The position numbers were made by a program, and so were the translations under genes. Positions 156 through 32,203 of a stretch of 32,203 nucleotides of DNA are shown here, in pieces. The DNA lies in NCBI GenBank assembly GCA_012517385.1, contig JAAYUZ010000018.1, positions 1 to 32,203 on the forward strand, written 5' to 3'. The first letter of the stretch is position 1. Each line of letters begins with the position of its first letter. A model generated the notes under the pieces. It made no database searches. It was not told the origin of the DNA and saw only the letters and a program-made list of their open reading frames with translations. The stretch is from Treponema sp. (GTDB lineage Bacteria > Spirochaetota > Spirochaetia > Treponematales > Breznakiellaceae).

Positions 156-170
156 GTGACGAGGTGCATA

Positions 171-4708: not shown

Positions 4709-4722
4709 AATTGCTATCAGAT

Positions 4723-4760
4723 ATACTTGTATATTAGTATAATGATTAGATGATTTGCAA
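4723..4760 (-). promoter_or_regulatory. GH2 promoter with overlapping GntR-type operator (site A)
   Basis: On the minus strand TTGCAA (4755-4760) and TAATAT (4731-4736) are spaced by 18 bases. The 18-bp imperfect palindrome ATACTTGTATATTAGTAT (4723-4740, 7 of 9 positions symmetric) covers the -10. The same type of palindrome occurs at 4798-4815 and 14552-14569. A repressor bound here would block GH2 transcription. Binding by the GntR protein encoded at 13768-14496 is inferred from shared sites, not shown. Confidence 0.6.
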
Positions 4761-4780
4761 GAGCCTCAATAAAAAATTGA

Positions 4781-4815
4781 TTGACAGAATTAAATATATG
4801 CTAATATACTAGTAT
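4781..4815 (+). promoter_or_regulatory. Transporter operon promoter with overlapping GntR-type operator (site B)
   Basis: TTGACA (4781-4786) and TATACT (4805-4810) are spaced by 18 bases, a strong vegetative-type promoter. The imperfect palindrome ATGCTAATATACTAGTAT (4798-4815, 7 of 9 symmetric) covers the -10 and contains the perfect 10-mer ATACTAGTAT. Transcription would start at or next to the ATG at 4818, so the mRNA may be leaderless. Confidence 0.7.
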
Positions 4816-4817
4816 TC

Positions 4818-5771: not shown

Positions 5772-5781
5772 GAGAACGAAG

Positions 5782-6651: not shown

Positions 6652-6719
6652 GGCAAAAAAATGCTGTGGGAATCCGCTGCTCTTAAGGGCAGTCACAATA
6701 TAATAAGGAGGATAGGGCT

Positions 6720-8345: not shown

Positions 8346-8353
8346 CCAAGAAC

Positions 8354-8432
8354 TGAGGTTCATGCAATAGTATGTTACTTTTGCAAAGACCTCAATCTAT
8401 AAGATTTGGACTGTCTGGTTCTCAGACAGTCC
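8354..8432 (+). other. Two consecutive intercistronic hairpins without a U-tract
   Basis: The first structure is TGAGGT-tca-TGCAA, a 13-base loop, then TTGCA-aag-ACCTCA (8354-8394), with a symmetric 3x3 internal loop. The second is GGACTGTCTG / CAGACAGTCC with a 5-base loop (8408-8432), a perfect 10-bp stem. Neither is followed by a T-run, so they are poor terminators. Their place after a binding-protein gene suggests mRNA stabilisation or partial attenuation, which would give more binding protein than downstream enzymes. Confidence 0.6.
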
Positions 8433-8464
8433 ATTGTAGCCCCTAGCTGTACATACATTACTAT

Positions 8465-9535: not shown

Positions 9536-9551
9536 GAACTGGAGTACATAG

Positions 9552-11582: not shown

Positions 11583-11666
11583 GTATCTCTTTATCTATCC
11601 TCAAAATTCCCTATAGCAACTTAATGAGGTATTGCATAGTATTGGTGCATCAAGGAGCAGAACGTA

Positions 11667-13754
11667 ATGGACAGACAGCTAATTATAGAAACAATGGTAA
11701 CCCACATGACCTTGGAAGAAAAAGTTGGCCTTATGGTACATCGGGCTAAGGGGGTTTCTCGCTTTGGAATCCCAGATTATAACTGGTGGAATGAAGCCCT
11801 GCATGGTGTGGCCAATAATGGGGAGGCAACAGTGTTCCCCCAGGCTATAGGGTTAGCTGCAACCTTTGATGATCAATTGCTGTATCGGATAGCGGAGGCC
11901 ATCTCTATAGAAGCCCGGGCAAAGTTTCATGCGGTAGGTAAAGAACAGGCTGAGCGATTTCATCGTGGGCTTACCTTCTGGGCTCCAAACATAAATATTT
12001 TCCGGGACCCCCGCTGGGGCAGGGGCCAGGAAACATATGGAGAAGACCCGTACCTGACAAGCCGTATGGGAACCGCCTATGTCCGTGGTTTACAGGGCAA
12101 TGATCCCTACTACCTCAGGGCTGCCGCATGTGCAAAGCATTTTGCGGTACACTCCGGACCGGAGGGATTGCGGCATACCTTTGATGCACAGGTTTCTCAA
12201 AAGGATCTGGAGGAGACCTATTTACCAGCCTTTAAGGCCCTGGTTGATGCGGGGGTCGAAAGTGTGATGGGTGCCTATAACCGTGTTAATGGAGAACCTG
12301 CCTGCGGGAGTTCCTACTTGTTGCAACACAAATTACGGGGCCAATGGCAGTTTAAAGGGCACGTTGTTTCAGATTGTTGGGCGATCTGTGACTTTCATAA
12401 AAATCACAAGGTGACTCAGGATATTCTTGAGTCCCTTGCGCTGGCATTAAAAACAGGCTGTGACCTTAATTGTGGTGATGCCTACTACTATTTGGCTGAG
12501 GCAGTACAAAAGGGCTATATCAGTGAAGCTGATATCGATCGTTCTGTGACTAGACTTCTTATGACACTGGACAAGCTGGGCTTGATACATGATGATGGTC
12601 CCTATCAAGGGATAGATCTTCAGCAGGTTAATTGGGAAGCCCATCATTCCTTAGCCTTGGAAGCCGCTGAAAAGTCAATTGTTCTATTAAAAAATAACGG
12701 TATTCTTCCTTTAAATAAGGAAAAGCTTTCGTATATTTACGTGACTGGCCCCAATGCAACAAACATTGATGCGTTGCTGGGGAATTATGCGGGAGTATCA
12801 TCGAATTTACAAACCATTCTTGAGGCTGTCGTTAAGGAAGCTGGCCCTGAAATCACCGTCACCTACAAGAAAGGATGCCCTCTGGCAGAGAAACGGATTA
12901 ATCCGAATGACTGGGCCAGCGGTGTTACTAAATACGCCGATGTTACCATTGCAGTTGTCGGCAGGGATATCAGCCTGGAGGGTGAAGAAGGGGACGCCAT
13001 CCTTTCATCAACCTATGGGGATTTTGAAGATCTGGACCTGAGTGATGAACAGCTAACCTATCTCCAGCGCCTGAAAGAAAGCGGAAAGCCCCTCGTAGTG
13101 GTTCTTATGGGCGGGGCTCCCATCTGTTCTCCCCGGCTGCATGAACTGGCTGATGCAATTCTTATGGCCTGGTACCCTGGACAGGCCGGGGGGACCGCTG
13201 TTGCAAATATTCTTTTTGGGAAAAAGAGCCCTTCAGGGAAACTGCCGGTTACATTCCCTAAATCGGTTCGCCAACTGCCTGAATTTGACAATTATGCTAT
13301 GCAGGGTCGAACCTATCGTTACATGGATGAGGAACCCCTGTACCCCTTTGGTTTTGGACTTTCCTATACAAACATGGAACTTGTTCATGGGGAATGCCGT
13401 TGGTCTTCGGCGGCGCAGGATGAACTTGCCCTGTCGGTGCAAATAAAAAATACCAGTATTAGAGATGGCGAAGAGGTGGTACAGTTGTATATGCACTGGG
13501 CTGATGCTCCCTTTGTGGTTCCCCGCTGGTCTTTAGTAGAATTTATTCGGCTTCCCCTTGCTGCCGGTGAAGTAAAAACAATTGAATTTGTATTACCCCT
13601 GGAGCATTTGCGGTGTATCGATCCTGATGGCCAGGCGGTTCTTCCCACAGGTAGAATACTGTTTTATGCGGGTTTTAACTCTCCAATATCCCAATCTACT
13701 GTTTTAGGCAGCCAGGAGGGAATCACCATGCAAATACAAAGGGATAAAAAATAA
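11667..13754 (+). CDS. Beta-xylosidase / beta-glucosidase, GH3
   Basis: The 695-residue protein has the GH3 order: N-terminal barrel with NWWNEALHG (about 39-47), WAPNINIFRDPRWGRGQETYGEDP, nucleophile motif VVSDCWA (Asp about 236), C-terminal alpha/beta domain with GRDISLEGEEGD, and a fibronectin-III-like end. The NWWNEALHGVA motif is characteristic of the bacterial and plant xylosidase branch of GH3. It lacks a signal peptide and should split imported xylo-oligosaccharides in the cytoplasm. AAGGAG stands nine bases before the ATG. An 84-base gap separates it from aguA. It converges on the GntR gene with only 13 bases between stop codons. The assignment as xylosidase rather than arabinofuranosidase rests on context and the N-terminal motif. 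Confidence 0.9.
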   Translation: MDRQLIIETMVTHMTLEEKVGLMVHRAKGVSRFGIPDYNWWNEALHGVANNGEATVFPQAIGLAATFDDQLLYRIAEAISIEARAKFHAVGKEQAERFHRGLTFWAPNINIFRDPRWGRGQETYGEDPYLTSRMGTAYVRGLQGNDPYYLRAAACAKHFAVHSGPEGLRHTFDAQVSQKDLEETYLPAFKALVDAGVESVMGAYNRVNGEPACGSSYLLQHKLRGQWQFKGHVVSDCWAICDFHKNHKVTQDILESLALALKTGCDLNCGDAYYYLAEAVQKGYISEADIDRSVTRLLMTLDKLGLIHDDGPYQGIDLQQVNWEAHHSLALEAAEKSIVLLKNNGILPLNKEKLSYIYVTGPNATNIDALLGNYAGVSSNLQTILEAVVKEAGPEITVTYKKGCPLAEKRINPNDWASGVTKYADVTIAVVGRDISLEGEEGDAILSSTYGDFEDLDLSDEQLTYLQRLKESGKPLVVVLMGGAPICSPRLHELADAILMAWYPGQAGGTAVANILFGKKSPSGKLPVTFPKSVRQLPEFDNYAMQGRTYRYMDEEPLYPFGFGLSYTNMELVHGECRWSSAAQDELALSVQIKNTSIRDGEEVVQLYMHWADAPFVVPRWSLVEFIRLPLAAGEVKTIEFVLPLEHLRCIDPDGQAVLPTGRILFYAGFNSPISQSTVLGSQEGITMQIQRDKK

Positions 13755-18399: not shown

Positions 18400-19494
<1,095 letters not shown>

Positions 19495-19657: not shown

Positions 19658-19692
19658 TAAGTCTACAAATAGTGGTGCGGGGAGGTTCTGTT

Positions 19693-22600
19693 GTGAAACA
19701 AGTTCATATTAAGAAAGATACCTATGTCGATTCGGTGTTTTTAATGCTTTTAAGCAAAGACCTGAAGGAACGGCCCGATATCAAAGATGCCACGGTAACC
19801 ATGGGAACTCCCATGAATCTGGATTTGCTTAAAGAACAGGGTTATAGCCTGGAATCCCTGAAGGATGTTACCCCGGCGGACCTGATTATTGCTTTGGATT
19901 GCACTTCTGAAAAAGCCCTGGATGCTGCCCTTTCAGCGGTAGATGATATGCTGGCTGGCAAAAAGAAGTCCAGTTCCACCTCCCTTTCGGGTACTGGATT
20001 ACCCCACAGTAAAACCCTGGACAGCGCCTTAGAACAAATACCCGATGCTAACCTCGCTATTATCTCCGTTCCCGGTATGTATGCGGCCCGGGAAGTCCGG
20101 AAGGCCCTGAATAAGAATCTCCATGTGATGCTCTTTTCGGACAATGTGTCCCTGGAAGATGAAATTTCCTTAAAACGTCTGGCCCGGGAAAAGGGACTCC
20201 TCGTGATGGGGCCCGATTGCGGTACCGCCATCATAGATGGTAAGCCCATCTGTTTTGCCAATGTGGTAGACCGGGGGCCTGTGGGGATCGTGGCCGCTGC
20301 AGGTACGGGACTCCAGGAAGTGTCCTGCCTTATCGACCGTTTTGGCAGCGGGGTAAGTCAAGGTATCGGTACGGGCGGCCGGGACCTTAAGAATGCCCAG
20401 GTGGGGGGAACTACCATGCTTATGGGTATCGAGGCTCTTGGTGCGGACCCCGAAACCAGGGCAATCCTTATTGTTTCTAAGCCCCCCGCACCGGAAGTTG
20501 CTTCCAAGGTAGTACAGGCCCTTGAAAAAACAGGAAAGCCCGCGGTGGTGCATTTTATCGGCCTCAAGACTCAGATAGCAGCGAAGCCCTCAATTCATTT
20601 TGCTTCCAATCTGGAAGAAGCATCCCGTTGGGCGGTGGCCCTTGCAAAGGGCGAACATATTGATGTACAGAGCCGGCGGTCTTGGCCCTTTGATCAATCC
20701 AGGGAAGAAATTGAGGCTCTGGTTGATCAGGAAACCCGCCGTATGTCCAAAGCGCAAAAATATATCCGGGGCTATTATACCGGCGGCACCCTGACCGATG
20801 AGGCCTGGATACTGCTCCATGAGCTTACCGGTGCGGTCTATTCTAATAATCAAACTGACCCTGCCTTTGTTCTGCCTAATCCTAAAAAATCCATTGGTCA
20901 CACCGTTGTGGATCTGGGGGACGATGTATTCACCGTAGGCAGGCCCCATCCCATGATTGATCCCTCTACCCGGACCGAACGGATTGATGCAGAACGGGAT
21001 GATCCGGAAATTGCGGTTGTTCTGGTGGACTGTGTATTAGGCTATGGTTCCCATGAGGACCCGGCGGGCGCAATGATTCCTTCTATTAAAAAGGCTAAGG
21101 AAGCGGCGGAAAAAAGGGGCGGATACCTTTCAGTGATCGCCTCTGTAACCGGCACCCCCGGAGACTTCCAGGGTTTCGAAGCCCAGGTGGCTAAGCTTCG
21201 CAGCGCCGGGGTCATCGTCATGCCGTCGAACTATCAGGCATCGATGCTAGCCCTGAAAATTATGGAGAAAGTAACCGGCAAACCGGCAGCGAGCAGCGTT
21301 GGCGAAAGACCTGCTGCCGGTACGGCAGCTTCGGCTGCCAAGGCCGGGGCTGTTCTGGTAAGTCCATCTGAGTCCATCGGCTCCGCTGTGGGTCCCAAAC
21401 ATATCCTTTCCCTCTTCAGTCACGGGTTAAAGGTCATCAATCTGGGTCTTGAATCCTTTGCAAAAAATCTGAAGGCCTGCGAAACTCAGGTGGTTCATGT
21501 GGATTGGGTGCCCCCAGCTGGCGGGAATACGGAGCTGATTCAGGTTTTGGACCGGCTGGAATCTAAAGCAACCATAGATATTGAAAAAGCCAATGCAGAA
21601 GCGGTGGATCGGATACTCTCAGGAAAGCCGGTTCTCAAAGGTATTGGAACCGCCCTTGACACAATACCCGGTATGAAGCCGAACCTCTTCCTCCATGCGG
21701 GACCGCCCGTAACCTGGGAAAAGATGTGCGGCCCCATGCGGGGTGCTGTTATCGGCGGCATCCTGTATGAGGGTTTGGCAAAAACAGAAGCAGAAGCGGA
21801 AGCCCTCGCTGCATCGGGAAAAATCGAATTTTCACCCTGCCAGGATCATTCGGCTGTCGGGCCTATGGCGGGTATTGTGACCCCCCGGATGCCGGTGTGG
21901 ATCATTGAGAACGAAACCTTTGGCAATCGGACCTATGCTACCCTGAACGAAGGGCTTGGCAAGGTACTGCGCTATGGAGCCTATTCCCATGAAGTGCTGG
22001 ATCGGCTCCGCTGGATGGAGGGCGAACTGGCCCCCATTCTGCAGAAGGCTATCGAAAAACATGGCCCGGTGGATATGCGGAGCCTCATTGTGCAGGCCCT
22101 GCAGATGGGTGACGAAGGCCATAACCGGAACCGGGCCGGAACTTCCCTGGTTATCCGGGAACTGGCTCCCTACCTGGTGATGCTGGATGAAAAGAAGGAA
22201 GCCCTTTCCCGGGTCCTCACCTTTATGCATCAAAATGACCATTTCTTCCTTAATCTTACGATGCCCTCGGCCAAGTCGGTGTTGATGGCCGCCGAAGGTA
22301 TTCCCGGCAGCACGGTCATTACCGCCCAGGGAAGAAACGGCACCGAATTCGGTATCCAGGTTGCGGGGCTTAAGGGCCGCTGGTTTACCGGACCTGCGGG
22401 TATCGTAAATGGTTTATACTTGCCAGGCTTTGGTCCTGAGGATGCGGCTCCCGATATTGGGGACTCGGTTATTACTGAAACAAGCGGTATCGGAGGCTTC
22501 GCCATGGCTGCAGCGCCGGCTATTGTAAAATTCGTAGGTGGTACCCCCGAGGATGCCCTCCGCTTTACCCGGGAGATGTATGAAATCACCCTGGCAGAAA

Positions 22601-22815
22601 ACAGGGAATACAAAATCCCGATTCTCGATTTCCGGGGCACCCCCACGGCTATCGATGTTCGCAAAGTGGTGGAAAAGGGCATATTGCCCGTGATTAACAC
22701 CGGTATCGCCCACAAAAAGCCCGGTATTGGCATGGTGGGTGCGGGCCTCGTGAAACCGCCGGTTAACTGTTATCAGGATGCTTTAAAAGCCCTGGCAGAG
22801 GCTTATACAAGATAA
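19693..22815 (+). CDS. FdrA-YlbE (AllF-AllG) fusion: oxamate transcarbamylase-like protein
   Basis: The 1040-residue protein joins two families that are separate in E. coli. Residues to about 525 match FdrA (AllF), a CoA-ligase-like fold with glycine-rich loops AAAGTGLQEV (about 199) and GIGTGGRDL (about 223). An Ala/Gly-rich linker follows (about 528-560), then DUF1116/YlbE (AllG) from about 600, with LFLHAGPPVTWEKMCGPMRG and MGDEGHNRN. In E. coli AllF, AllG and AllH together convert oxalurate and phosphate to oxamate and carbamoyl phosphate. An AllH-like gene and carbamate kinase lie downstream in the same operon. GTG at 19693 was chosen because GGGGAGG lies seven bases upstream; the frame opens earlier at 19672 without such support. 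The true substrate may differ, because no allantoin genes are present. Confidence 0.85.
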   Translation: MKQVHIKKDTYVDSVFLMLLSKDLKERPDIKDATVTMGTPMNLDLLKEQGYSLESLKDVTPADLIIALDCTSEKALDAALSAVDDMLAGKKKSSSTSLSGTGLPHSKTLDSALEQIPDANLAIISVPGMYAAREVRKALNKNLHVMLFSDNVSLEDEISLKRLAREKGLLVMGPDCGTAIIDGKPICFANVVDRGPVGIVAAAGTGLQEVSCLIDRFGSGVSQGIGTGGRDLKNAQVGGTTMLMGIEALGADPETRAILIVSKPPAPEVASKVVQALEKTGKPAVVHFIGLKTQIAAKPSIHFASNLEEASRWAVALAKGEHIDVQSRRSWPFDQSREEIEALVDQETRRMSKAQKYIRGYYTGGTLTDEAWILLHELTGAVYSNNQTDPAFVLPNPKKSIGHTVVDLGDDVFTVGRPHPMIDPSTRTERIDAERDDPEIAVVLVDCVLGYGSHEDPAGAMIPSIKKAKEAAEKRGGYLSVIASVTGTPGDFQGFEAQVAKLRSAGVIVMPSNYQASMLALKIMEKVTGKPAASSVGERPAAGTAASAAKAGAVLVSPSESIGSAVGPKHILSLFSHGLKVINLGLESFAKNLKACETQVVHVDWVPPAGGNTELIQVLDRLESKATIDIEKANAEAVDRILSGKPVLKGIGTALDTIPGMKPNLFLHAGPPVTWEKMCGPMRGAVIGGILYEGLAKTEAEAEALAASGKIEFSPCQDHSAVGPMAGIVTPRMPVWIIENETFGNRTYATLNEGLGKVLRYGAYSHEVLDRLRWMEGELAPILQKAIEKHGPVDMRSLIVQALQMGDEGHNRNRAGTSLVIRELAPYLVMLDEKKEALSRVLTFMHQNDHFFLNLTMPSAKSVLMAAEGIPGSTVITAQGRNGTEFGIQVAGLKGRWFTGPAGIVNGLYLPGFGPEDAAPDIGDSVITETSGIGGFAMAAAPAIVKFVGGTPEDALRFTREMYEITLAENREYKIPILDFRGTPTAIDVRKVVEKGILPVINTGIAHKKPGIGMVGAGLVKPPVNCYQDALKALAEAYTR

Positions 22816-22836
22816 GGATGTACCCGTTCAGACCTG

Positions 22837-22860
22837 GTCGGACAATATGTCGGACAATAT
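22837..22860 (+). repeat. Perfect 12-bp tandem duplication
   Basis: GTCGGACAATAT occurs twice in direct succession, ending just before the ribosome-binding site of the cyclase gene. It is outside both flanking coding regions when the cyclase starts at 22877. It may be a replication slip or a duplicated regulatory element. Confidence 0.8.
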
Positions 22861-22876
22861 TTTTTGGAGGTGTTCA

Positions 22877-23755
22877 ATGAAAGTTATCGATTTAACGATT
22901 CCGCTGGGTGTAGGGACCCCGCCCTGGCCAACCTACATTCCTCTGCAGGTACAATACTTTAAGCGTCTGGCTCCTAATGGGGCTAACGGTCAGGTGGTAA
23001 CCCACTCGAACCATATCGGTACCCATCTGGACGGGGAAATCCACTTTTATACCCCCGGAAAGGATATTGCGAGCCTGGATATGGATTTCCTGGTCCATGA
23101 AGGGGCCATCGTAGACCTGTCCGATGTATGCGGCGATTATGACGTGTACACCTCCAAAATGGTGGAGGAACGGGTGGAAGTAAAAGAGGGGGATATCCTC
23201 ATCATTCATACGGGATACCATCATTATGGCTGGGACCAGCCCACCGGAGACGAAATCCGGTACATGATTAAGCATCCCGGGCCGGATCGGGAATTTGCTG
23301 AATGGGCAAAGAAAAAGAAACTCCGGTGGATCGGCGTCGACTGCGGCAGTGCGGATCACCCCATGAACACCAAGATCCGGGAATGGATGCCCCGGCAGGC
23401 TAAGGAGTGCGATGCCCATTTTCAGAAGAAATATGGCAAATCCCTGGAAGAGTTCTTCAGCGATGATAAGTACCAGTTGATGCATATCGAAATGTTCGAC
23501 AAGGGAATTATCCATGCCGAATGTGTGGGCGGCGACATCGATCTGCTCCTGAATCAGCGGGCGGTTATCGGCTGTTATCCCTGGCGTTTTGTGGACGGCG
23601 AATCCTCCATTGCCCGTATTGTAGCCCATGTAGAGGATGACCGTTATGAAGAATTGATGAAGAAAAAGGCCAAAGCAGAACTTACCCGGTTTGGTGATGT
23701 GGCTGGTGCAAAGAATCCCTGGCTCCATGAGGAAGCCAGAAAGAACCATAAATAG
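22877..23755 (+). CDS. Cyclase-family metal-dependent hydrolase (kynurenine formamidase-like)
   Basis: The 292-residue protein belongs to the cyclase family (Pfam Cyclase), which includes kynurenine formamidase and isatin hydrolase and splits amide or lactam bonds with Mn or Zn. The metal motif is seen as NHIGTHLDGEIHF (about residues 46-58), against the usual H-x-G-T-H-x-D-x-P-x-H-F, with the proline position changed. Other family marks are DILIIHTGY and WIGVDCGSADHP. The ATG at 22877 is preceded by GGAGGT at five bases; a longer opening from 22847 crosses the tandem repeat. In this operon it may open a ring or remove an acyl group from a nitrogen compound before the transcarbamylase step, which is inference. 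Confidence 0.85.
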   Translation: MKVIDLTIPLGVGTPPWPTYIPLQVQYFKRLAPNGANGQVVTHSNHIGTHLDGEIHFYTPGKDIASLDMDFLVHEGAIVDLSDVCGDYDVYTSKMVEERVEVKEGDILIIHTGYHHYGWDQPTGDEIRYMIKHPGPDREFAEWAKKKKLRWIGVDCGSADHPMNTKIREWMPRQAKECDAHFQKKYGKSLEEFFSDDKYQLMHIEMFDKGIIHAECVGGDIDLLLNQRAVIGCYPWRFVDGESSIARIVAHVEDDRYEELMKKKAKAELTRFGDVAGAKNPWLHEEARKNHK

Positions 23756-23766
23756 AGGAGCAAATC

Positions 23767-24453
23767 ATGGCAATTGATGAGATGGAGAAAAAACTGAGAC
23801 CCCCAGAGATAGAGCTGAAGCCCTATCCACCCAAGGTAATTACCCTGGCTTCGGGAGAAAAGATGGTAGTCCGCGAAGCCCGCCGGGAAGAAGTTGGTGT
23901 TCTGCTGGGTACGGTTGCCCCCCTTATCGGTGTTGCAGCTGATTTTTATGATATCGTCGCTGCCCGTATGTATTCGGAAATCTTAGGCTGGTACCGCTAC
24001 CGGGTAGCCAACGAATTTGTTCTCGTTGGTGCAATTAACGGCGTTATCGCCGGTATCGTAACCAGCCGCCATGTGGATGACAAGCTTGGTATGAGTCTCC
24101 ACACCCTTACTATTAAGCGGGGCCTCCGGGTCGGTGCCCAGCTTTTTGCTGCCAAGATTGAACACCACATCGATATTCTTGGTGAAGATGAAGTATGGAT
24201 CGTGGCCGAGAGCCCCAATGGCTTTAAGCGCTGGATGATTGAATATCAGCTGGAAGACCGGTCCCACCTGTATCCTCAGGTCCGGCATGAACTCGGCGGG
24301 GTTCCCACCTATGTACTGACCCGCAAGCTCTGGAATGATGTAAAAGCGGTGAAATGCACTGGTACCCGTCCTGTTTCAGAAGAGGACCTTAAGTCCGCTG
24401 AAAAACTGATCATGCCCAGTGAATATCCACAAATTCCAGGGTTTAAGAGGTAA
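23767..24453 (+). CDS. GNAT-like acyltransferase fold protein of unknown role
   Basis: The 228-residue protein begins with a 25-residue acidic/proline lead. The rest follows a GNAT-type order: VVREARREEVGVLL, FVLVGAINGVIAGIVTSRHV, the cofactor-loop-like KRGLRVGAQLFAAKIEHH, and EVWIVAESPNGFKRWMIEYQ near the expected product-side strand. The R/Q-x-x-G-x-G/A loop is not exact, so acetyl-CoA binding is uncertain. It lies 11 bases after the cyclase gene and three bases before the thiolase-fold gene, with GAGGAG before the ATG. A role in modifying a pathway intermediate, or as a structural partner, is possible. The family is recognised only loosely. Confidence 0.5.
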   Translation: MAIDEMEKKLRPPEIELKPYPPKVITLASGEKMVVREARREEVGVLLGTVAPLIGVAADFYDIVAARMYSEILGWYRYRVANEFVLVGAINGVIAGIVTSRHVDDKLGMSLHTLTIKRGLRVGAQLFAAKIEHHIDILGEDEVWIVAESPNGFKRWMIEYQLEDRSHLYPQVRHELGGVPTYVLTRKLWNDVKAVKCTGTRPVSEEDLKSAEKLIMPSEYPQIPGFKR

Positions 24454-24456
24454 ATT

Positions 24457-25656
24457 ATGGCCGCCAGAGTCGGTATTGTTGGAATCGGGCATACCCGGTT
24501 CGGAAATTCTTCGGAATACGACCTGGCGGACGTCATGGCCTATGCGGCTACTGACGCCCTCCAGGATGCGGGGTATCTGGAAAAACGAAAAGAAATTGAC
24601 CAGGTCATTGTAGGAAACATGGCTTCGGGACTTTTCGTTCATCAATCTGCGGTGGCTTCCTCTTTAATAAGCCGCATGGATATGGAACCAGTCCCTGCTG
24701 AATTGGTCGAAAACGGACCAGCCTCCGGGGCCAGTGCCATTAAAATCGGTTATATGGCCATTGCCTCCGGGATGTGCGATGTGGTCCTGGTGGTTGGCGG
24801 CGAAGTGATGCGGAAGGTCAGCGGATGGATGGCCACCGATATAGTTGCAACCATGCTTCATCAGGAAGCGGAATACAATATGGGGCTCACCCTGCCATCC
24901 TTTGGCGGAATGTTCACCAGGCTTTATATGGAAAAGTATGGGCTTACAGAACGGGACCTGGCACTTCTTGCGGTAAAGAACCATGATAACGGGGCAAAGA
25001 ATAAATATGCCCATATTCAGGCCCCGGTGAATATCGAAGCTATTGCGGATGGTCCCGAAGCGGAGGTTGTGAACAACTATGTGGCTGAACCCCTGCGGAT
25101 GTATTCAACCTGTCCTGTTTCAGACGGTGCTGCCGCAGTGCTCCTGGTGAACATGGACTCCCCCCGGGTAAAGGACTTTAAGAAAAAGCCCATTAGAATT
25201 GCAGGCATCGCCAGTGCCACCGACACCCACTGCGTCCATAACCGTACGGACCCCCTGCAGCTGAATGCGGTCCGCATTGCCGCTGAAAAGGCCTACAAAA
25301 TGGCCGGTGTGGGCCCAAAGGATATTTCCTTTGCAGAACTTCATGATGCATTCTCTATCCTGGAACTGGCCATCAGCGAAGAGGTCGGTTTCTTTGAGCG
25401 GGGCAAGAGCTATCTTGCGGTTCGCAATGGGGAAACCAGGATTGATGGACGGCTCCCGATTAATACCTCCGGAGGCTTAAAATCAAAGGGCCATCCGGTC
25501 GGTGCTACCGGGGTATCCCAGGTGGTTGAACTGGTCCGTCAGCTCCGTGGTGAGGCAGAACCGGGCCGCCAGGTAAAGGACCCGAAGTATGGTATGGCGG
25601 TGAACTTTGGTGGTTTTGGCAACAACGTGGTTGCCGTTATTTGTGCAAAGGAATAA
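24457..25656 (+). CDS. Thiolase-fold protein of the SCP2/Ltp type lacking catalytic cysteines
   Basis: The 399-residue protein is thiolase-like across its length. The two catalytic His regions are kept: FAELHDAF (His about 296) and GGLKSKGHPVGATG (His about 346). The nucleophilic Cys is replaced: the usual C-A-S-G segment reads ENGPASG with Pro at about 88. The C-terminal Cys motif is NFGGFG, and HDCF of SCP2 thiolases is HDAF. Normal acyl transfer through a Cys-bound intermediate is therefore unlikely. Paired with the DUF35 gene 10 bases downstream, it resembles Ltp-type retro-aldolases, which work as thiolase-fold/DUF35 complexes. It probably makes or breaks a C-C or acyl bond in the pathway; the reaction is unknown. 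Confidence 0.82.
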   Translation: MAARVGIVGIGHTRFGNSSEYDLADVMAYAATDALQDAGYLEKRKEIDQVIVGNMASGLFVHQSAVASSLISRMDMEPVPAELVENGPASGASAIKIGYMAIASGMCDVVLVVGGEVMRKVSGWMATDIVATMLHQEAEYNMGLTLPSFGGMFTRLYMEKYGLTERDLALLAVKNHDNGAKNKYAHIQAPVNIEAIADGPEAEVVNNYVAEPLRMYSTCPVSDGAAAVLLVNMDSPRVKDFKKKPIRIAGIASATDTHCVHNRTDPLQLNAVRIAAEKAYKMAGVGPKDISFAELHDAFSILELAISEEVGFFERGKSYLAVRNGETRIDGRLPINTSGGLKSKGHPVGATGVSQVVELVRQLRGEAEPGRQVKDPKYGMAVNFGGFGNNVVAVICAKE

Positions 25657-25666
25657 GGGGTCAGCT

Positions 25667-26050
25667 ATGTTTATCGATTTCAGCCAATACGAAGTAAAGG
25701 CCCCCAAGATTAAGGCCTTTAAGTGTCAGAGCTGCGGGGCCATCTATTATCCAGCACCGATGATCTGCTCAAAATGTAATGCCCGGAGGGACCCGGTAAC
25801 CGGCAAGGGCTGGGAAACCTTTGACCTGGAAGGCCCCTGTACCCTGCTTTCCTGGACCAGGGCTTGGAATTTACCGGAAGGGTATACCAAAAAGTATATG
25901 CTCTTTGGTATAGTCCAGTTCGAAAACGGACTGCGAGCCTCGGGGCGGCTGGAAGTGGATAACCCGGTTATCGGGATGAAACTTACCGCTACGGTCATAG
26001 AGTCCGATGAACGGCCGGGAAAACCGGTAAAGGTATTTGTGTTTAAGTAG
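25667..26050 (+). CDS. DUF35 zinc-ribbon/OB-fold protein, partner of the thiolase-fold protein
   Basis: The 127-residue protein has an N-terminal rubredoxin-like zinc ribbon (CQSC about 24-27 and CSKC about 38-41). An OB-fold follows: FDLEGPCTLLSWTRAW, MLFGIVQFENGLRASGRLE, IGMKLTATVIE. DUF35 proteins bind thiolase-fold partners and help bind CoA substrates, as in archaeal thiolase/HMG-CoA synthase and Ltp2 aldolase complexes. It directly follows the thiolase-fold gene. The ATG at 25667 was chosen because it gives the standard DUF35 start; the longer opening overlaps the preceding gene. Confidence 0.9.
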   Translation: MFIDFSQYEVKAPKIKAFKCQSCGAIYYPAPMICSKCNARRDPVTGKGWETFDLEGPCTLLSWTRAWNLPEGYTKKYMLFGIVQFENGLRASGRLEVDNPVIGMKLTATVIESDERPGKPVKVFVFK

Positions 26051-26059
26051 GAGGATCCA

Positions 26060-26740
26060 ATGGCCGACGGACGGAACGGGCGTAATCTCAGTGCAGAGGT
26101 CTACGAGACCCTATCAGAACGAATTCGCACCTGGCTCTATCCGCCTGGCCATCGGCTTACCGAAGAAGAACTTTGTAATGAATTTGGTATGAGCCGCAGT
26201 CCCATCCGGGAAGCCCTGAACATGCTTGTGGAGGCTGGTCTTGTAGATAAGGCTGAACGGAAGGGGTACCGGGTCCGCAAAATTGATCTGCAGGAACTGC
26301 AGGACCTCTACGATACCCGGCTGGTGCTGGAACTGGCGGTCATTGAACGGATCTGTGAACGGGGGATAAGTTCCGGACTCCTCAGGCAGCTTAGAAAACG
26401 CTGGAAGGAACTGCGGGACGCCCTGCCGGCCATGGCCCATGAGGCAGCCCTGGAGGATGAACACTTTCACGAAGCCCTTGCTGCCGAAGCAGGCAATAGG
26501 GTGATGCAGCGTATTCTTAAAGAGATTGATCGTAGTATCCATTTTGTCCGGCTTTCGGATATTACCGATCCGGAACGTCTTCGCAAAACCTGTTCGGATC
26601 ATCTGGAGATTCTTGATGCCCTTGAAAAGCATGATCTACAGAGGGCCAAGGAATTAACCCGTGAAAACATACTCTGGGGCAAAGAAAAGGTTGCAAATGC
26701 CCTGAAGGAAGCTCTGGTGCGTTCCTATGGCATGGTATAG
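26060..26740 (+). CDS. GntR-family regulator, FCD subfamily
   Basis: The 226-residue protein has an N-terminal winged helix (about 8-75; MSRSPIREALNMLVEAGLV is the recognition segment). An FCD domain follows with the metal-ligand pattern in DEHFHEAL and SDHLEIL. It is encoded inside the operon, nine bases after the DUF35 gene, with GGAGG before the ATG. It probably controls the operon through the TTGTATACAA palindrome at 19635-19644, with a pathway acid as effector. It is only distantly similar to the regulator at 13768-14496, and its proposed site differs, so the two circuits should be separate. Confidence 0.92.
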   Translation: MADGRNGRNLSAEVYETLSERIRTWLYPPGHRLTEEELCNEFGMSRSPIREALNMLVEAGLVDKAERKGYRVRKIDLQELQDLYDTRLVLELAVIERICERGISSGLLRQLRKRWKELRDALPAMAHEAALEDEHFHEALAAEAGNRVMQRILKEIDRSIHFVRLSDITDPERLRKTCSDHLEILDALEKHDLQRAKELTRENILWGKEKVANALKEALVRSYGMV

Positions 26741-27722
26741 CATGGAATCAAGTGCTGAAGGCACTGCGGTTCCTCCAGAATCGGTGAATCTATTAACTGC
26801 AATTCAAAGAGGCTCTCTTTTCCCAAAGGAACCCTTTAATTGTAAAATTCACTCTCTATTTGCCCATGCTGTTAACCTGGAAATTCCTGATTTCCCCCTC
26901 TTATATACCCTGGTAAATCAAGAGTTCCTGATGCATCCCCTGGCGGCCCTCATTTCAAACAGCGGTTATACATCCTTTGAATCCCTCAAGCTCCAAACTG
27001 GCCAGAGTGGATACTTTGATGGGATGAGTCTTACTCTTGGTCCTACATGCAGGATTAGCTTTCCAAAAGTAAGGACGGCCCGTGCCTGTGATGAACGAGT
27101 CCCGGATCTGAATTTATCCCATGGGGAATTTCAGGATCAACTTGATCTGGCTGGACAAGCTCTGGAGTATGCCCAGACACAAAAAGATACTGTACTTCGC
27201 TGGAATTCCGCCAAAAGACAACCCTATTACAGGCTTTCAGGTTCAAAACAGAACTGGGCTTCTTTTAGTGAAGCTGTAAACAATTTGGTGCTGGCTTTGC
27301 ATAAAGAAAAAATCTCCGAAGCCCTCACTGCAACTTTACAGCTTGTAGGTTTGGGGCAGGGGCTTACACCTTCGGGAGATGACTTTCTCTGTGGTTTTAT
27401 TCTGGCCCTGTGTATGGGTCAAATGGATACGCTGATTCTTGATACCTGGCTCTGGGGGCTTGCAAATGAACTTGGTGTTGGAGAATTGCCTGCAAAAACA
27501 ACAAAAGAGCTGACCAGCAGGGTTTCAAAAACCTTTTTGTACCTGGCGACCAGGAAAAGGTTCAGCAAACTATTGTTGCAGATGGGACGGTCCTATTCCA
27601 AAGACCCAGCTTCATGGATGAGTTTTTTGAGCCTGCTGGAAACCTATGGGCATAGCTCTGGACTGGATAGTGCCACCGGGTTTCTGTATGGAATGGCAAC
27701 GGTGGATAAAAGGAGGAATTGA
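26727..27722 (+). CDS. DUF2877 protein (YlbF/AllH-like), third transcarbamylase component
   Basis: The protein has up to 331 residues and carries the DUF2877 hallmark GLGQGLTPSGDDFLCGF in its middle. In E. coli the DUF2877 protein YlbF (AllH) is needed with AllF and AllG for oxamate transcarbamylase activity. Here it is the only other member of that trio, since F and G are fused. The start is not certain: the ATG at 26727 overlaps the GntR end by 14 bases, and an in-frame ATG at 26742 begins one base after the GntR stop. Neither has a good Shine-Dalgarno. Its TGA overlaps the ATG of the carbamate kinase by one base, so the two are coupled. It is somewhat longer than E. coli YlbF (about 270 residues). 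Confidence 0.85.
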   Translation: MAWYSMESSAEGTAVPPESVNLLTAIQRGSLFPKEPFNCKIHSLFAHAVNLEIPDFPLLYTLVNQEFLMHPLAALISNSGYTSFESLKLQTGQSGYFDGMSLTLGPTCRISFPKVRTARACDERVPDLNLSHGEFQDQLDLAGQALEYAQTQKDTVLRWNSAKRQPYYRLSGSKQNWASFSEAVNNLVLALHKEKISEALTATLQLVGLGQGLTPSGDDFLCGFILALCMGQMDTLILDTWLWGLANELGVGELPAKTTKELTSRVSKTFLYLATRKRFSKLLLQMGRSYSKDPASWMSFLSLLETYGHSSGLDSATGFLYGMATVDKRRN

Positions 27723-28666
27723 TGGCACGTAAAATAGCTGTTGTTGCAGTGGGAGGCAATGCGCTGATCCGGGATCCCAAGAAAACCGGGCTTCAGTATC
27801 AGTTTGAGTCGGTGCGGCTTACTGTTCCCTATATAGTGGATCTTATTCAGGCAGGGTATTCCGTGGCGATTACCCATGGCAACGGTCCCCAGGTTGGTTT
27901 TTTACTGCGTAAAAACGAAATCAGCGCGAAGGAAGTGCCGCCAGCCCCGTTGGATTATATCGGTAGCAATACCCAGGGGTCCATCGGCTATATGTTCGAA
28001 ACTTCCCTCTATAACGAATTCCGTCGTCGCGGTATGCCGAACCGGGCGGTGGCACTGGTCACTGAGACTGTGGTAGATCCCAAGGATCCGGCGTTCCAGA
28101 ACCCCACAAAGCCTATAGGTTCCTTTATGGACGAGGCCACCGCCCGGATGCGGCACGAACAGGACGGGTGGACCGTAGTGGAGGATTCCGGCCGGGGCTG
28201 GCGGCGGGTAGTTCCAAGCCCCAAGCCGAAGCGGATCATTCAGGAAAGTATAATCCGGGAACTTTTGGAGCAGGGCGAGACGGTCATCGCCGTGGGCGGC
28301 GGCGGTGTCCCCGTGGCTGAGGCCGAAGACGGCACCATATCGGGACTGGAAGCGGTGATCGATAAGGACCTGGCATCCAGTGTGCTCGCCTCATCAATTG
28401 GGGCGGACCTCTTCCTGATTTCTACCGAGGTAGAAAAGGTTGCCCTGGATTTTACCAAGCCAAGCCGCCGCTGGCTCGACAAACTTACTATAGCGGAGGC
28501 GGAGGAATACCTGGCCCAGGGCCAGTTCGGCAAGGGCAGTATGGAACCAAAGGTAAGTGCGGTAATCGACTATCTTAAGAGGGGCGGCAAAGAAGCGATT
28601 ATCACCAATTCAGAAAACATGAGCCGGGCTCTGCGGGGAGAGTCTGGAACCCGGTTCATTCCGTAA
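27722..28666 (+). CDS. arcC: Carbamate kinase
   Basis: The 314-residue protein is a full carbamate kinase of the amino-acid-kinase fold: VVAVGGNALI near the start, ITHGNGPQVGFLL, PLDYIGSNTQGSIGYM, VIAVGGGGVPV, AVIDKDLAS and FGKGSMEPKV. It makes ATP, ammonia and CO2 from carbamoyl phosphate and ADP. Coupled to the AllH-like gene, it probably has the role of E. coli YbcF (AllK), the kinase of oxalurate breakdown, rather than that of the arginine deiminase pathway, because no arcA or arcB is nearby. The ATG at 27722 has AGGAGG five bases upstream; an earlier TTG at 27719 is not needed. It ends about 28 bases before the hydroxylase genes. Confidence 0.96.
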   Translation: MARKIAVVAVGGNALIRDPKKTGLQYQFESVRLTVPYIVDLIQAGYSVAITHGNGPQVGFLLRKNEISAKEVPPAPLDYIGSNTQGSIGYMFETSLYNEFRRRGMPNRAVALVTETVVDPKDPAFQNPTKPIGSFMDEATARMRHEQDGWTVVEDSGRGWRRVVPSPKPKRIIQESIIRELLEQGETVIAVGGGGVPVAEAEDGTISGLEAVIDKDLASSVLASSIGADLFLISTEVEKVALDFTKPSRRWLDKLTIAEAEEYLAQGQFGKGSMEPKVSAVIDYLKRGGKEAIITNSENMSRALRGESGTRFIP

Positions 28667-28694
28667 TACCGAAATCCCGAAATAAGGAGGTGCT

Positions 28695-29513
28695 ATGTTA
28701 CATCAATTTTCCTATGCAGCCCCCCGATCAAAGTCGGAGTTGTTTTCGATTCTGGACGATCAGGGTGCTAACGCAAAGGTTCTGGCAGGCGGAACTGATT
28801 TATTGGTGAATATCCGCAATGGGGTCATGAAACCCCGGCTTGTGGTGGATATAAAAAAGGTATCCGGTTACCAGGGCATCAGTTACAGCCCTACCGAAGG
28901 TCTTATATTCAGGCCCACGGTGACCATCAACGAAATCCTTCGGGATGCTTCGGTCCGGGACCATTATCCGCTTTTACAGGAATGCGGTCATGATCTGGCC
29001 AGTTATCAGGTCCGGAACCGGGCGACCATAATGGGTAATGTGGTAAACGCATCCCCCTGTTCGGATATGGCCCCGGCTCTGCTTTGTCTTGGTGCCCGGG
29101 CGGTGATTGCTTCGAGTAAGGGAACCAGAGAAGTACCCTTTAAGGAATTTTTTACGGGTGTAAAAAAGACCGTCCTTAGTCCCACCGAAGTTCTGGAGTC
29201 CATTGTGGTACCTGCATCTTCTGCAGGCGGTCGCGGAGCCTACAGAAAGCTGAAACGGATCAATGGGCACGATTTGGGGATCGTCGGTGTGGCGGTTTAT
29301 ATTCAGGGGGATCTGCTTCGTATCGCAGCCAGTTCCTCTGCTCCTACCCCGGTAGTTACTCCGGATCTGCCGGCTGACATCTCAGTAGAGGATGCGGTGG
29401 CTGCCATAAAGAAAATCATCAGTCCCATCAGTGATGTACGGTGCAGCAAGGAATACCGGGAATTTATGGTGGAAGTATTTGTAAAACGACTGCTGGCGGA
29501 GGTGAGAAAATGA
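28695..29513 (+). CDS. FAD-binding (medium) subunit of a xanthine dehydrogenase-family hydroxylase
   Basis: The 272-residue protein has the CO dehydrogenase/xanthine dehydrogenase FAD-binding fold: the pyrophosphate loop VLAGGTDLLVNIRNG (about 34-48), and RNRATIMGNVVNASPCSDMAPALL (in place of the usual T-I-G-G-N). A C-terminal CO-dehydrogenase flavoprotein domain follows. It passes electrons from the 2Fe-2S centres to an external acceptor such as NAD+. AAGGAGG lies before the ATG. Its TGA overlaps the ATG of the 2Fe-2S gene. Order FAD, 2Fe-2S, Mo is that of CoxMSL-type trimers and many N-heterocycle hydroxylases. Confidence 0.93.
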   Translation: MLHQFSYAAPRSKSELFSILDDQGANAKVLAGGTDLLVNIRNGVMKPRLVVDIKKVSGYQGISYSPTEGLIFRPTVTINEILRDASVRDHYPLLQECGHDLASYQVRNRATIMGNVVNASPCSDMAPALLCLGARAVIASSKGTREVPFKEFFTGVKKTVLSPTEVLESIVVPASSAGGRGAYRKLKRINGHDLGIVGVAVYIQGDLLRIAASSSAPTPVVTPDLPADISVEDAVAAIKKIISPISDVRCSKEYREFMVEVFVKRLLAEVRK

Positions 29514-30001
29514 AGATCTCGGTAAAAATAAACGGCGAACTCTATGAACGGGATGTGGCAGAAAACCGGACCCTCCTGCGTTTTTTGCGGGAAGACCTGG
29601 GCCTTACGGGCACCAAGGAAGGCTGCGGGGCAGGGGAGTGCGGCGCCTGTACGGTCTTTATGAATGGGAAAACGGTCAATTCCTGTATGGTCCTGGCGGT
29701 AGAAGCGGATGGTGCAGAGATTGAAACCATAGAAGGGGAAGCGAAAGATGGCACCCTGTCGAAACTGCAGGAAGCCTTTGATAAAAACAATGCGGTCCAG
29801 TGCGGCTTTTGCACTTCCGGTATGATCATGTCCGCCCGGGAGCTGATTCGTATCCACCCGAAACCCACGGTAGAAGAAATAAAAGAAGGGCTGGAGGGTA
29901 ACTTCTGCCGCTGTACGGGCTATCAGCAGATCATAGAAGCGGTCCTGGATGCCACGGGACAACTCGAAAAGAAGGAGGGATTGAAATATGCTGGAAAATA
30001 G
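29510..30001 (+). CDS. 2Fe-2S (small) subunit of a xanthine dehydrogenase-family hydroxylase
   Basis: The 163-residue protein has both iron-sulfur clusters: a plant-type ferredoxin domain with GCGAGECGACTVFMNG and a later Cys (VNSC), then a helical domain with CGFCTSGMIM and CRCTGYQQI. It links the molybdenum centre to the FAD subunit. The ATG at 29510 is supported by GGAGG upstream and by the ATGA overlap with the previous gene; the longer frame from 29441 is rejected. It overlaps the start of the Mo subunit by 14 bases. Confidence 0.95.
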   Translation: MKISVKINGELYERDVAENRTLLRFLREDLGLTGTKEGCGAGECGACTVFMNGKTVNSCMVLAVEADGAEIETIEGEAKDGTLSKLQEAFDKNNAVQCGFCTSGMIMSARELIRIHPKPTVEEIKEGLEGNFCRCTGYQQIIEAVLDATGQLEKKEGLKYAGK

Positions 30002-32203
30002 CGATCCCAAAACCTTAAAATATGTCGGTAAGGCGGTCCGCCGCGAAGAGGCTATCGAAAAAATCACCGGCGCCGCCACCTATGTAAGTGATATGGTATT
30101 ACCGGGTATGCTCTACGCCCAAGTAAAAAAAAGCCCCCATGCTCGGGCCCGCATTATAAAGATTGATGTATCCAAGGCCCAGGCTTTGCCGGGGGTTCGG
30201 GCGGTGCTCACCGGGGAGGAGCTTAATTACAAGCTCGGTCTTTATATTGTTGATAAGGATATACTCGCAAAAAAGGAAGTCCGTCACTATGGCGAAGCCG
30301 TAGCGGCGGTGGCCGCAGATACCCTGGAAATCGCAAAAAAAGCGGTAGATCTCATCGATGTTGAATATGAGGTTCTGGAGCCCATACTGAACCACATGGA
30401 TGCTATAAAAGAGGGAGCCCCCCTCATCCACCCCGATCTGGGCAAATACGATTATTTTAAGCCCGCCTTTTCTCCCCAGCCGGGAACTAATATTGCTACC
30501 TGGAATAAGATGCGCAAGGGGGATGTAGAAAAGGGCTTTGAAGAATCGGAATGGATTATTGAACGGGAATACACGAACCCGAGTGTCCAGCATGTACCTA
30601 TGGAAACCCATGTGGCCATAGTGCAGTGGGGAAAGGATGATAACATCACCATCTGGTCCAGCGCCCAGTCTCCCTTTACCGTGCGGAACCTGTTCTGCTA
30701 TGCCTTTAAGCTGCCCCTGAACAAGGTGAGGGTTCTGGTTCCCCATGTGGGCGGCGGTTTTGGCGGCAAGGCGGGGATTCATATTGAACCTCTTACAGCG
30801 GTTCTTTCTAAAAAAGCCGGAGGCCGGCCGGTGAAATTCCAGGCTACGAGGGAAGAGGAATTCTCCCTGTTACCCTGCCGCAGCGCTCTGACCTATCGGA
30901 TTAAGACCGGTGTGTCAAAGGATGGTCGTATCCTCGCCCAGAAAATGACCATGTACTGGGATGCAGGAGCCTATGCGGACTACGCAGTCAATGTTACCCG
31001 GGCTTCCTGCTATTCTGCCAACGGACCCTATGATATTCCCAATGCCTGTGTCGATGCCTATACGATTTATACCAACAAACCCTATGGTACCGCCTACCGG
31101 GGCTTTGGTCATGTGGAATTCCACTGGGGCCTGGAACGGCACATGGAACTGGTTGCCCGGGCTATCGGTATGGATCCCCTGGAGTTCCGCCGCAAAAACG
31201 CTCTCAGACCCGGATCTACTACCCTATCCGGTGAAGTAATCCAGGAACACACCGGCAATGTTCTTAAATGTATCGATGAGGTCGCCAAGTCTATACATTA
31301 TGGAACCTTAACGGAAGAAGAAAAGGAACGGGAACGGAAGACGGGCCGGAAGATCGGTAAGGGTATTGCGGCCCTTCATAAGGCCCCAGCCATGCCTTCC
31401 TTCACGGCCACTTCGGCGGTCATCAAGATGAACAGCGACGGGACCGTGAATGTAAACGTGGGCCTCATGGAAATTGGTCAGGGTTCCAGCACAGCCTTCC
31501 AGCAGATTGTGGCAGAACGCCTGGGTTTCCCCCTGGAGAAGGTTAAGGTTACTGTGGAAAAGGATACCGACCGTGATCCCTACGATTGGCAGACCGTGGC
31601 TTCCAAGGGGCTCATTCTCTCCGGGAATGCCTGTATCCTCGCTGCGGAGGACCTCCTGAAGAAGGGCTATGAGGTGGCTGCCCAGATTTTAAGGGCTAAT
31701 CCTGCGGACCTGGCCCATGACGGGGACAAGATATATGTAAAACATCACCCCGCAGAGGCGGTTACCTGGGCAAGTATCTCTATCGGTTACGCCTATCCTA
31801 ACGGAAACGGTGTGGGCGGACCCCTCATCGGTGTTGGTCAGTATATAGCCCAGGGCTTGAGCAACCTGGATAAGGAAACCGGTGTGGGCAATCCCGCGTT
31901 GGACTGGACCTATGGTGCCCATGGAATCATTGTAGAAGTAGACCCCGAAACGGGTGAATACAAGATTCTAAAAATAGCCAGTGCCTTTGATGTAGGAAAG
32001 GTTATCAGCGAAGATATGGTTCGGGGTCAGGCTATCGGCGGCATGATCCAGGGCCTTGGGACCGCAATTTGCGAAGGGTACATCTACGATAAGCAGGGGC
32101 ACCTCCTTAACCCCTCCTTTACGGACAATAAGATCCCCACCGCTAAGGACCTGCCTGAGCAGATTGAGACCATCGCGGTAGAAACCCCGCAGCTGGATGG
32201 TCC
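29988..32203 (+). CDS. Molybdopterin-binding (large) subunit of a xanthine dehydrogenase-family hydroxylase (partial, runs off the window)
   Basis: The frame is open for 738 codons to the window end. The N-terminal a/b hammerhead domain (VGKAVRREEAIEKITGAATY) is followed by the Mo-cofactor motif HVGGGFGGK (about 253-261), HVPMETH, and GTAYRGFGHVEFHWG, where the Arg is that of the active-site RGFG loop. The usual family length is about 760-780, so only some 20-40 residues are missing, among them the conserved catalytic Glu near the C-terminus. AAGGAGG precedes the ATG. The residues after RGFG (HVE rather than the PQ typical of xanthine dehydrogenases) suggest a substrate other than xanthine, such as another N-heterocycle; this is only a hint. 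Confidence 0.93.
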   Translation, partial: MLENSDPKTLKYVGKAVRREEAIEKITGAATYVSDMVLPGMLYAQVKKSPHARARIIKIDVSKAQALPGVRAVLTGEELNYKLGLYIVDKDILAKKEVRHYGEAVAAVAADTLEIAKKAVDLIDVEYEVLEPILNHMDAIKEGAPLIHPDLGKYDYFKPAFSPQPGTNIATWNKMRKGDVEKGFEESEWIIEREYTNPSVQHVPMETHVAIVQWGKDDNITIWSSAQSPFTVRNLFCYAFKLPLNKVRVLVPHVGGGFGGKAGIHIEPLTAVLSKKAGGRPVKFQATREEEFSLLPCRSALTYRIKTGVSKDGRILAQKMTMYWDAGAYADYAVNVTRASCYSANGPYDIPNACVDAYTIYTNKPYGTAYRGFGHVEFHWGLERHMELVARAIGMDPLEFRRKNALRPGSTTLSGEVIQEHTGNVLKCIDEVAKSIHYGTLTEEEKERERKTGRKIGKGIAALHKAPAMPSFTATSAVIKMNSDGTVNVNVGLMEIGQGSSTAFQQIVAERLGFPLEKVKVTVEKDTDRDPYDWQTVASKGLILSGNACILAAEDLLKKGYEVAAQILRANPADLAHDGDKIYVKHHPAEAVTWASISIGYAYPNGNGVGGPLIGVGQYIAQGLSNLDKETGVGNPALDWTYGAHGIIVEVDPETGEYKILKIASAFDVGKVISEDMVRGQAIGGMIQGLGTAICEGYIYDKQGHLLNPSFTDNKIPTAKDLPEQIETIAVETPQLDG

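Follow-up and report, generated by a model that had tools for sequence, protein, structure and literature searches.

The closest described relative of the system considered here is AllFGH of Escherichia coli, which is reported to convert oxalurate to oxamate and carbamoyl phosphate (PMC11326118). Recognition of these proteins as a class of transcarbamylase dates from 2024, and their discoverers were unable to predict the complex. The same paper gives AllF and AllG dimers as equal in number, as inferred by sodium dodecyl sulfate-polyacrylamide gel electrophoresis (SDS-PAGE), although it adds that this was not apparent on the western blot (PMC11326118). Earlier, a 2012 paper on orphan enzymes presented the three E. 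coli genes as separate candidates (PMC3364942). The window analysed here, a stretch of 32,203 nucleotides from Treponema sp. (assembly GCA_012517385.1, contig JAAYUZ010000018.1), carries on its plus strand, at 19693..22815, a single gene in which homologues of AllF (FdrA) and AllG (DUF1116) are joined with a short third module, m, between them. On balance, it seems probable that the two homologues, held in one chain, form the stable core of a non-classical transcarbamylase whose substrate, in a route of uracil breakdown, would be ureidomalonate. We infer the transcarbamylase activity from homology to E. coli AllFGH and the substrate from the gene neighbours alone.

The FdrA-DUF1116 fusion is genuine and, by itself, a modest variant. 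Translation of 19693-22815 (+) gives 1040 residues with a single, terminal stop. The mechanical call of the open reading frame (ORF) begins at an alternative GTG at 19672 and gives a 1047-residue form; GTG 19693 is the likelier start because GGGAGG, as judged by eye, lies seven bases upstream of it. The fused ORF exceeds the cut-offs of both the NCBIfam FdrA model NF004760 (597 bits, cut-off 433) and the Pfam AllG model PF06545 (332 bits, cut-off 27), and the PDB entries 3dmy (E. coli FdrA) and 3clq (Enterococcus faecalis DUF1116) match separate parts of the protein. The initial annotation, which had placed AllF and AllG homologues in one uninterrupted frame, is thereby borne out. No classical transcarbamylase (aspartate or ornithine transcarbamylase, or YgeW) was recovered with any Pfam or NCBIfam model at E≤0.001 or any PDB chain at E≤1, and a virus search with the fused protein gave no confirmed match. 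The genome of origin contains a single match to the protein, on contig C30.

An artefact, in the form of a stop or frameshift at the linker or an annotation error, had been raised as a possible objection. The frame is open, and same-frame fusions occur in 10 of 103 loci: besides the window, they are found in genomes G012 (86% identical over the protein), G010 (73%), G435, G538 and G564, in G512 (locus L049, cut by the contig end with 44 FdrA residues left), in L053 (a Caldiserica-labelled metagenome-assembled genome (MAG)), in L054 (Spirochaetae HGW-2) and in L058 (a Sphaerochaeta MAG). Two of these genomes, G538 and G564 (3.3 and 3.6 Mb), each consist of a single contig, which makes an assembly error an unconvincing explanation. 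The length of an AllG frame was rejected as proof of fusion: the AllG frames of L039 (G460, 1028 residues) and L040 (G525, 1010 residues) are long, and FdrA lies in another frame in both.

Four parts can be distinguished along the protein, all on the plus strand. Module F, the FdrA/AllF core with its succinyl-CoA-synthetase-alpha-like and CoA-ligase domains, spans residues 1-527 (19693..21273) and is followed by a linker (residues 534-564, 21292..21384); module m (residues 568-624, 21394..21564) corresponds to the C-terminus of E. coli AllF and the N-terminus of E. coli YahG, and module C is the DUF1116/AllG core (residues 630-1040, 21580..22812). The Ala/Gly-rich linker lies where it had been placed, at about residues 528-560, and the predicted local distance difference test (pLDDT) of an AlphaFold2 (AF2) model stays below 50 over 534-564. 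The linkers of the ten fused proteins measure 34-45 residues and are dissimilar in sequence; because the linker sequence is not conserved, it would only tether. Unfused FdrA proteins (n=82) end a median of 6 residues past the core.

The border between the two subunits had also been set at the linker, and this does not hold. The NF004760 match ends at residue 629 of the 1047-residue form (622 of 1040), the alignment to 3dmy covers residues 96-527 and resumes with 3dmy 420-475 on 568-624 (28.9 bits), and the sequence match to 3clq begins at residue 630. Because the C-terminus of 3dmy aligns to 568-624, the roughly 57 residues past the linker are part of AllF in E. coli, which puts the E. coli AllF/AllG border at residues ~622-630, some 60 residues past the linker, with a third module in between. 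In the second E. coli set, module m resides on YahG. An alignment of 19 m sequences shows N, G, F, W, P and G invariant at six fixed positions.

In the AF2 model, built from 53 aligned rows (mean pLDDT 89.4, predicted template modelling score (pTM) 0.80, pLDDT below 50 in segments 95-100 and 534-564), module m has a predicted compact fold of strand-helix-strand-helix order. Structure comparison places 3clq over residues 623-1039 (Z 63, 52% identity) and the succinate-CoA ligase alpha fold of 2yv2 over residues 12-318 of module F (Z 20.1, root-mean-square deviation (rmsd) 2.5 over 216). The fit to 3dmy over 102-611 is poor (rmsd ~20 Å), which presumably reflects differently placed domains in the model.

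Profile searches for the three parts classified 103 loci by their gene borders. With a slash for a border and a hyphen for a shared frame, the arrangements are F/m-C in 65 loci, F/m/C in 21, F-m-C in 10 and F-m/C in 2, with 5 incomplete. Locus L035 was scored by the script as F/m-C, yet it is a decayed fusion, and the identical C modules of L044 and L067 and of L045 and L059, all unfused, probably come from the same contigs reached twice. The F-m/C pair consists of the E. coli all locus and a Chloroflexi MAG (L111). The order F-m-C is kept in 98 of 98 loci with all three parts, and the borders alone shift; movable borders within a constant order are what would be expected of the parts of one complex, and they suggest that m may sit at the F-C interface.

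A separate m gene of 56-69 codons is flanked by fdrA and the DUF1116 gene in the 21 F/m/C loci (L070, L072, L074, L076, L087, L088, L090, L092, L094, L096, L099, L100, L104, L108, L109, L112, L114, L115, L119, L120 and L125). Starts were assigned by script as the nearest start codon, which was found for every m gene and is TTG in L112. The in-frame stops of the AllG region, which might have been taken for selenocysteine codons, fall between m and C. These m genes are so short that annotation easily misses them. The presence of two AllG genes in many clostridia was considered and rejected, the pair being an m gene and a C gene with stops between them. Among the 64 scored F/m-C loci, fdrA and the m-C gene share a 4-base start/stop overlap in 18 (15 ATGA, 3 GTGA) and a one-base overlap in 7, which suggests that translation of the two may be coupled in unfused relatives.

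The fusion had been taken as evidence of direct contact between the two subunits and as fixing their ratio. The latter is a direct consequence, F and C being present 1:1 in a single chain. As to contact, fusion and exchangeable gene borders together argue for one complex. The fusion is not general: it occurs in 3 of the 80 named loci, which are the best 80 of at least 570 confirmed relatives. What the fusion most likely provides is a stable F2C2-type core in which m would be held next to both halves.

Within the taxonomic family, a search of 195 genomes gave matches in 23, of which six have a real homologue (G000, G010, G011, G012, G145 and G148); the other 17 have only short hits, 24-31% identical, confined to the part that resembles succinyl-CoA synthetase. 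In the phylum, the AllG domain occurs in 32 of 392 genomes, and 6 of the 22 with inspected frames are fused, including G512. An IQ-TREE phylogeny of 28 rows chosen from 91 requires two changes to account for the fused rows: eight of them cluster with G011, whose fusion has decayed (support 81/89, not starred), and fused L038 (G435) groups with unfused L055 and L056. Constraining the fused rows to one group makes the tree 18.5 log units worse (p-AU 0.056). It is thus possible that the fusion arose either once or twice, in a spirochaete-centred clade.

Base composition sets the operon apart from what precedes it, with 52% guanine plus cytosine (GC) in region 19672-32203 vs 44% in the 19.6 kb upstream, and with GC at third codon positions ranging over 0.43-0.63 for nine operon genes vs 0.34-0.45 for seven upstream genes. 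This fits a horizontal gain of the operon, although the corresponding contrast in G012 is weak (0.53 vs 0.49-0.50). In a complete relative, G011 (L035 2060-10292), the operon is in decay: six deletions, by comparison with the window, strike the genes for the fusion, the PF04199 protein, p228, the thiolase-like protein, AllH, ArcC and the 2Fe-2S and large subunits of the molybdenum hydroxylase.

In the oxidative pyrimidine pathway, uracil is converted through barbiturate and ureidomalonate to malonate and urea. Ureidomalonate, which is ring-opened barbiturate, equals oxalurate plus one CH2, and the genes beside the fusion can be arranged into a route leading to it. Uracil would be taken up by an NCS2 permease and oxidized to barbiturate by a molybdenum hydroxylase, after which a PF04199 hydrolase would open the ring to give ureidomalonate. 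The fused protein together with AllH is proposed to convert an acyl-urea and phosphate to an amide and carbamoyl phosphate, here ureidomalonate to malonamate, and the carbamate kinase ArcC would use carbamoyl phosphate to form ATP, NH3 and CO2. Further use of malonamate may fall to the CoA-transferase, nitrilase-type amidase and MmdA-like decarboxylase of other loci.

The genes concerned follow the fusion on the same strand. The PF04199 cyclase-family hydrolase (22847..23755, +), the proposed ring-opening amidase, may start at an internal ATG at 22877, and it is the only protein found to match PF04199 in the whole genome; cyclic-amide hydrolases are among the members of this family. The AllH homologue (26727..27722, +; PF11392 (DUF2877), 70.5 bits, cut-off 25) would be the third transcarbamylase subunit, and ArcC is encoded at 27719..28666 (+; TIGR00746, 370.5 bits, cut-off 358.25). 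The FAD subunit (28695..29513, +), 2Fe-2S subunit (29441..30001, +; PF01799, PF00111) and large subunit (29988..32201, +; MoCoBD_1, MoCoBD_2, Ald_Xan_dh_C) of the molybdenum hydroxylase come last, the large subunit being cut by the contig end at 738 residues. In G012 the next gene after the large subunit is an NCS2 permease, and the window's own genome holds a permease fragment 99% identical to it that reaches the very end of contig C112 (10894-11403 of 11403); on account of this fragment, the operon very likely continues on C112.

Four other genes stand between the hydrolase and AllH. The conserved protein p228 (23767..24453, +; 228 residues) has a predicted GNAT (acetyltransferase) fold and no Pfam match at E≤0.001. 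The thiolase-like protein (24457..25656, +) keeps the GHP and HDAF motifs, and NGPASG is present in 27 of the 27 rows covering the site among 28 aligned; this site is the position of the catalytic cysteine in thiolases. Its DUF35/ChsH2-type zinc-ribbon partner (25607..26050, +) probably starts near 25664 and scores 21.6 bits with PF12172, under the cut-off of 23.2. A GntR/FCD regulator follows at 26060..26740 (+). The AllH protein of the window shares only 42% identity with that of its same-genus relative G012 (L033:8318-9355), and the other operon proteins share 86-99%; AllH may either evolve very fast or have been exchanged. Upstream of the operon, at 156-13754 and 18400-19482, lie plant-polysaccharide genes (GH8, GH2, ABC transporter, UxuA, GH67, GH3, and GH11 with CBM6).

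A comparable setting recurs among the 80 named loci, 44 of which are at least 15 kb long. The partners found are PF04199 (71), AllH (56), the molybdenum hydroxylase large subunit (42), NCS2 (32), p228 (25), thiolase-like, DUF35 and PucR proteins (20 each), CaiB (19), nitrilase-type and cytosine-deaminase-like proteins (7 each), MmdA-like proteins (6) and GntR (4), and relatives with a PF04199 neighbour span many phyla. Thirteen NCS2 genes, chosen by the analyst out of 47 ORFs, were typed. All 12 from PF04199 loci score higher with the uracil-permease model NF007995 than with the xanthine (pbuX) and RutG models, two of them (639 and 656) exceeding its cut-off of 477, and the one from a locus that lacks PF04199 (L123) is of the xanthine type, above cut-off.

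Several observations weigh against the assignment of the fused protein to a uracil route. Ten of the 12 NCS2 genes fall under the uracil-permease cut-off, and the broad NCS2 model scores highest in 2 of the 12. ArcC adjoins only 4 of the 80 named relatives. PF04199 proteins are not known to us to open barbiturate, and the proposed route assigns no clear step to the thiolase-like, DUF35 and GNAT genes. The best model for the molybdenum hydroxylase large subunit is the xanthine dehydrogenase XdhA NF043082 (477 bits vs a cut-off of 780), and all 13 curated models listed stay below cut-off with this 738-residue, contig-cut copy, so that these scores do not single out a substrate. Because the AF2 model places F and m in a manner unlike 3dmy, no contact of m with F or C is claimed, and its docking is not established by the model. 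Finally, the substrates of the family probably differ, judging from plasmid clusters in which the ring openers fit the cyanuric acid model and one permease is of the xanthine type.

The plasmid search returned 194 records matching the fused protein, 159 of them over at least 80% of its length at a single place, and three records were examined. Aminobacter pSR8 and Citrobacter pE51_002 (L145 8989-14082 and L146 5299-12941) carry fdrA, a DUF1116 gene and arcC together with an AtzD-type amidohydrolase (551 and 581 bits; cut-off of the cyanuric acid model 360). Both plasmids are typed conjugative. A gene annotated DUF2877 adjoins the cluster in pE51_002, where the AllH match is confirmed; the gene so annotated in pSR8 lies ~8 kb off and is cut, and the piece has no Pfam match. 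The permease of pE51_002 is of the xanthine type. The Peptoclostridium record holds a biuret-hydrolase-like gene that scores below its cut-off; it also lists two genes as xanthine permeases, neither of which has an NCBIfam match at 1e-10. In nitrifiers, allFGHK is reported beside biuH (PMC12625717).

These clusters make it conceivable, if unlikely, that the protein acts by the same mechanism on another acyl-urea, such as biuret or carboxybiuret from cyanurate or the ureido product of thymine (methylbarbiturate): two of them combine fdrA, the DUF1116 gene and arcC with an AtzD that exceeds the cut-off for cyanuric acid amidohydrolase, and the third has its biuret-hydrolase-like gene, though below cut-off. 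In the window, however, the PF04199 protein and the molybdenum hydroxylase would be superfluous for cyanurate, and no AtzD or isochorismatase-type match appears among the window genes scanned. There is a similarly small chance that the enzyme differs from that of E. coli only by the fusion and is the oxamate transcarbamylase that serves anaerobic breakdown of allantoin (purines). E. coli AllFGH is the characterised homologue, AllH and ArcC are in the operon, some family members stand beside xanthine-type permeases, and the large subunit of the molybdenum hydroxylase scores best, though under cut-off, with xanthine dehydrogenase. Yet the relatives adjoin PF04199 hydrolases, molybdenum hydroxylases and transporters resembling uracil permeases; AllC and AllD have no match in the genome (94% complete; two protein searches without a positive control), no allantoinase exceeds the curated cut-off there (best 208 of 358 bits), and no allantoin-pathway gene is present among the window genes scanned, no search having been aimed at AllE. 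On this evidence, "the transcarbamylase" of the initial annotation is better not taken for the oxamate enzyme.

The database name of FdrA, acyl-CoA synthetase, describes a function that is very improbable here: the succinyl-CoA-synthetase-alpha-like fold of module F (Z ~20), its Pfam Ligase_CoA match and the presence of CaiB-type CoA-transferases (19/80) and thiolase-like proteins (20/80) in the same loci agree with it, but the models for the ADP-forming succinate-CoA ligase alpha subunit reach only 57.6 and 59.3 bits on the fused protein, far under their cut-offs of 353.2 and 336, and transcarbamylase activity has been shown for E. coli AllFGH (PMC11326118). A different question is whether the fusion matters at all. 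That it is a neutral accident, a stop lost between coupled genes to no effect, is compatible with the enzyme proposed above and somewhat unlikely; it would agree with the unconserved linker sequence, with the 4-base overlap in 18 of 64 scored unfused loci and with the restriction of the fused proteins to a single part of the tree, where they have one or two origins. Against it, several families have retained the fusion, its linker of 34-45 residues being open and predicted to be disordered.

The interest of the locus is raised by a third module that has its own gene in many bacteria and by a setting that points to uracil over allantoin. The moving m border suggests a meeting place of the two large subunits, and the fusion offers a single-chain version which, with AllH, could serve structure work. 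More speculatively, and at odds somewhat short of even, a widespread and hitherto undescribed anaerobic uracil route may run through barbiturate and gain ATP from ureidomalonate phosphorolysis, with a four-module enzyme in which the 57-residue m would be an overlooked subunit completing the FdrA/DUF1116 active site. If true, the uracil assignment would add an energy-saving pyrimidine pathway in many anaerobic phyla, with a ring opener whose family is not known to us for this reaction. A literature search, short of most subscription journals and preprints, turned up nothing in print on the fusion, on module m, on this set of genes or on a pathway linking uracil and FdrA.

Set beside known systems, the fused protein and its partners share with E. 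coli AllFGH (FdrA, YlbE, YlbF) and AllK the homologous modules F, m and C as well as AllH and a carbamate kinase; the E. coli system differs in having separate subunits, m on AllF (F-m/C), allantoin-pathway neighbours and oxalurate as substrate. The E. coli YahF/YahG set, with YahE (DUF2877) and YahI (carbamate kinase-like), has the same modules and partners but is unfused, with m on YahG (F/m-C). The plasmid clusters of Aminobacter pSR8 and Citrobacter pE51_002 likewise place the transcarbamylase set beside a ring-opening amidase, which there is AtzD and not PF04199, and no molybdenum hydroxylase is annotated in the stretches shown. The oxidative pyrimidine pathway shares its first two chemical steps with the route proposed here, in which phosphorolysis would make the final step energy-conserving and the ring opener comes from another family; one paper names that pathway as known and contains neither the term FdrA nor DUF1116 (PMC12507026). 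According to the same source, YgeW (a carbamoyltransferase) and YqeA (a carbamate kinase), which act in uric acid breakdown, likewise gain ATP by way of carbamoyl phosphate from the phosphorolysis of a ureido group (PMC12507026), but YgeW belongs to the classical transcarbamylase family, to which AllFGH is described as showing no similarity (PMC11326118).

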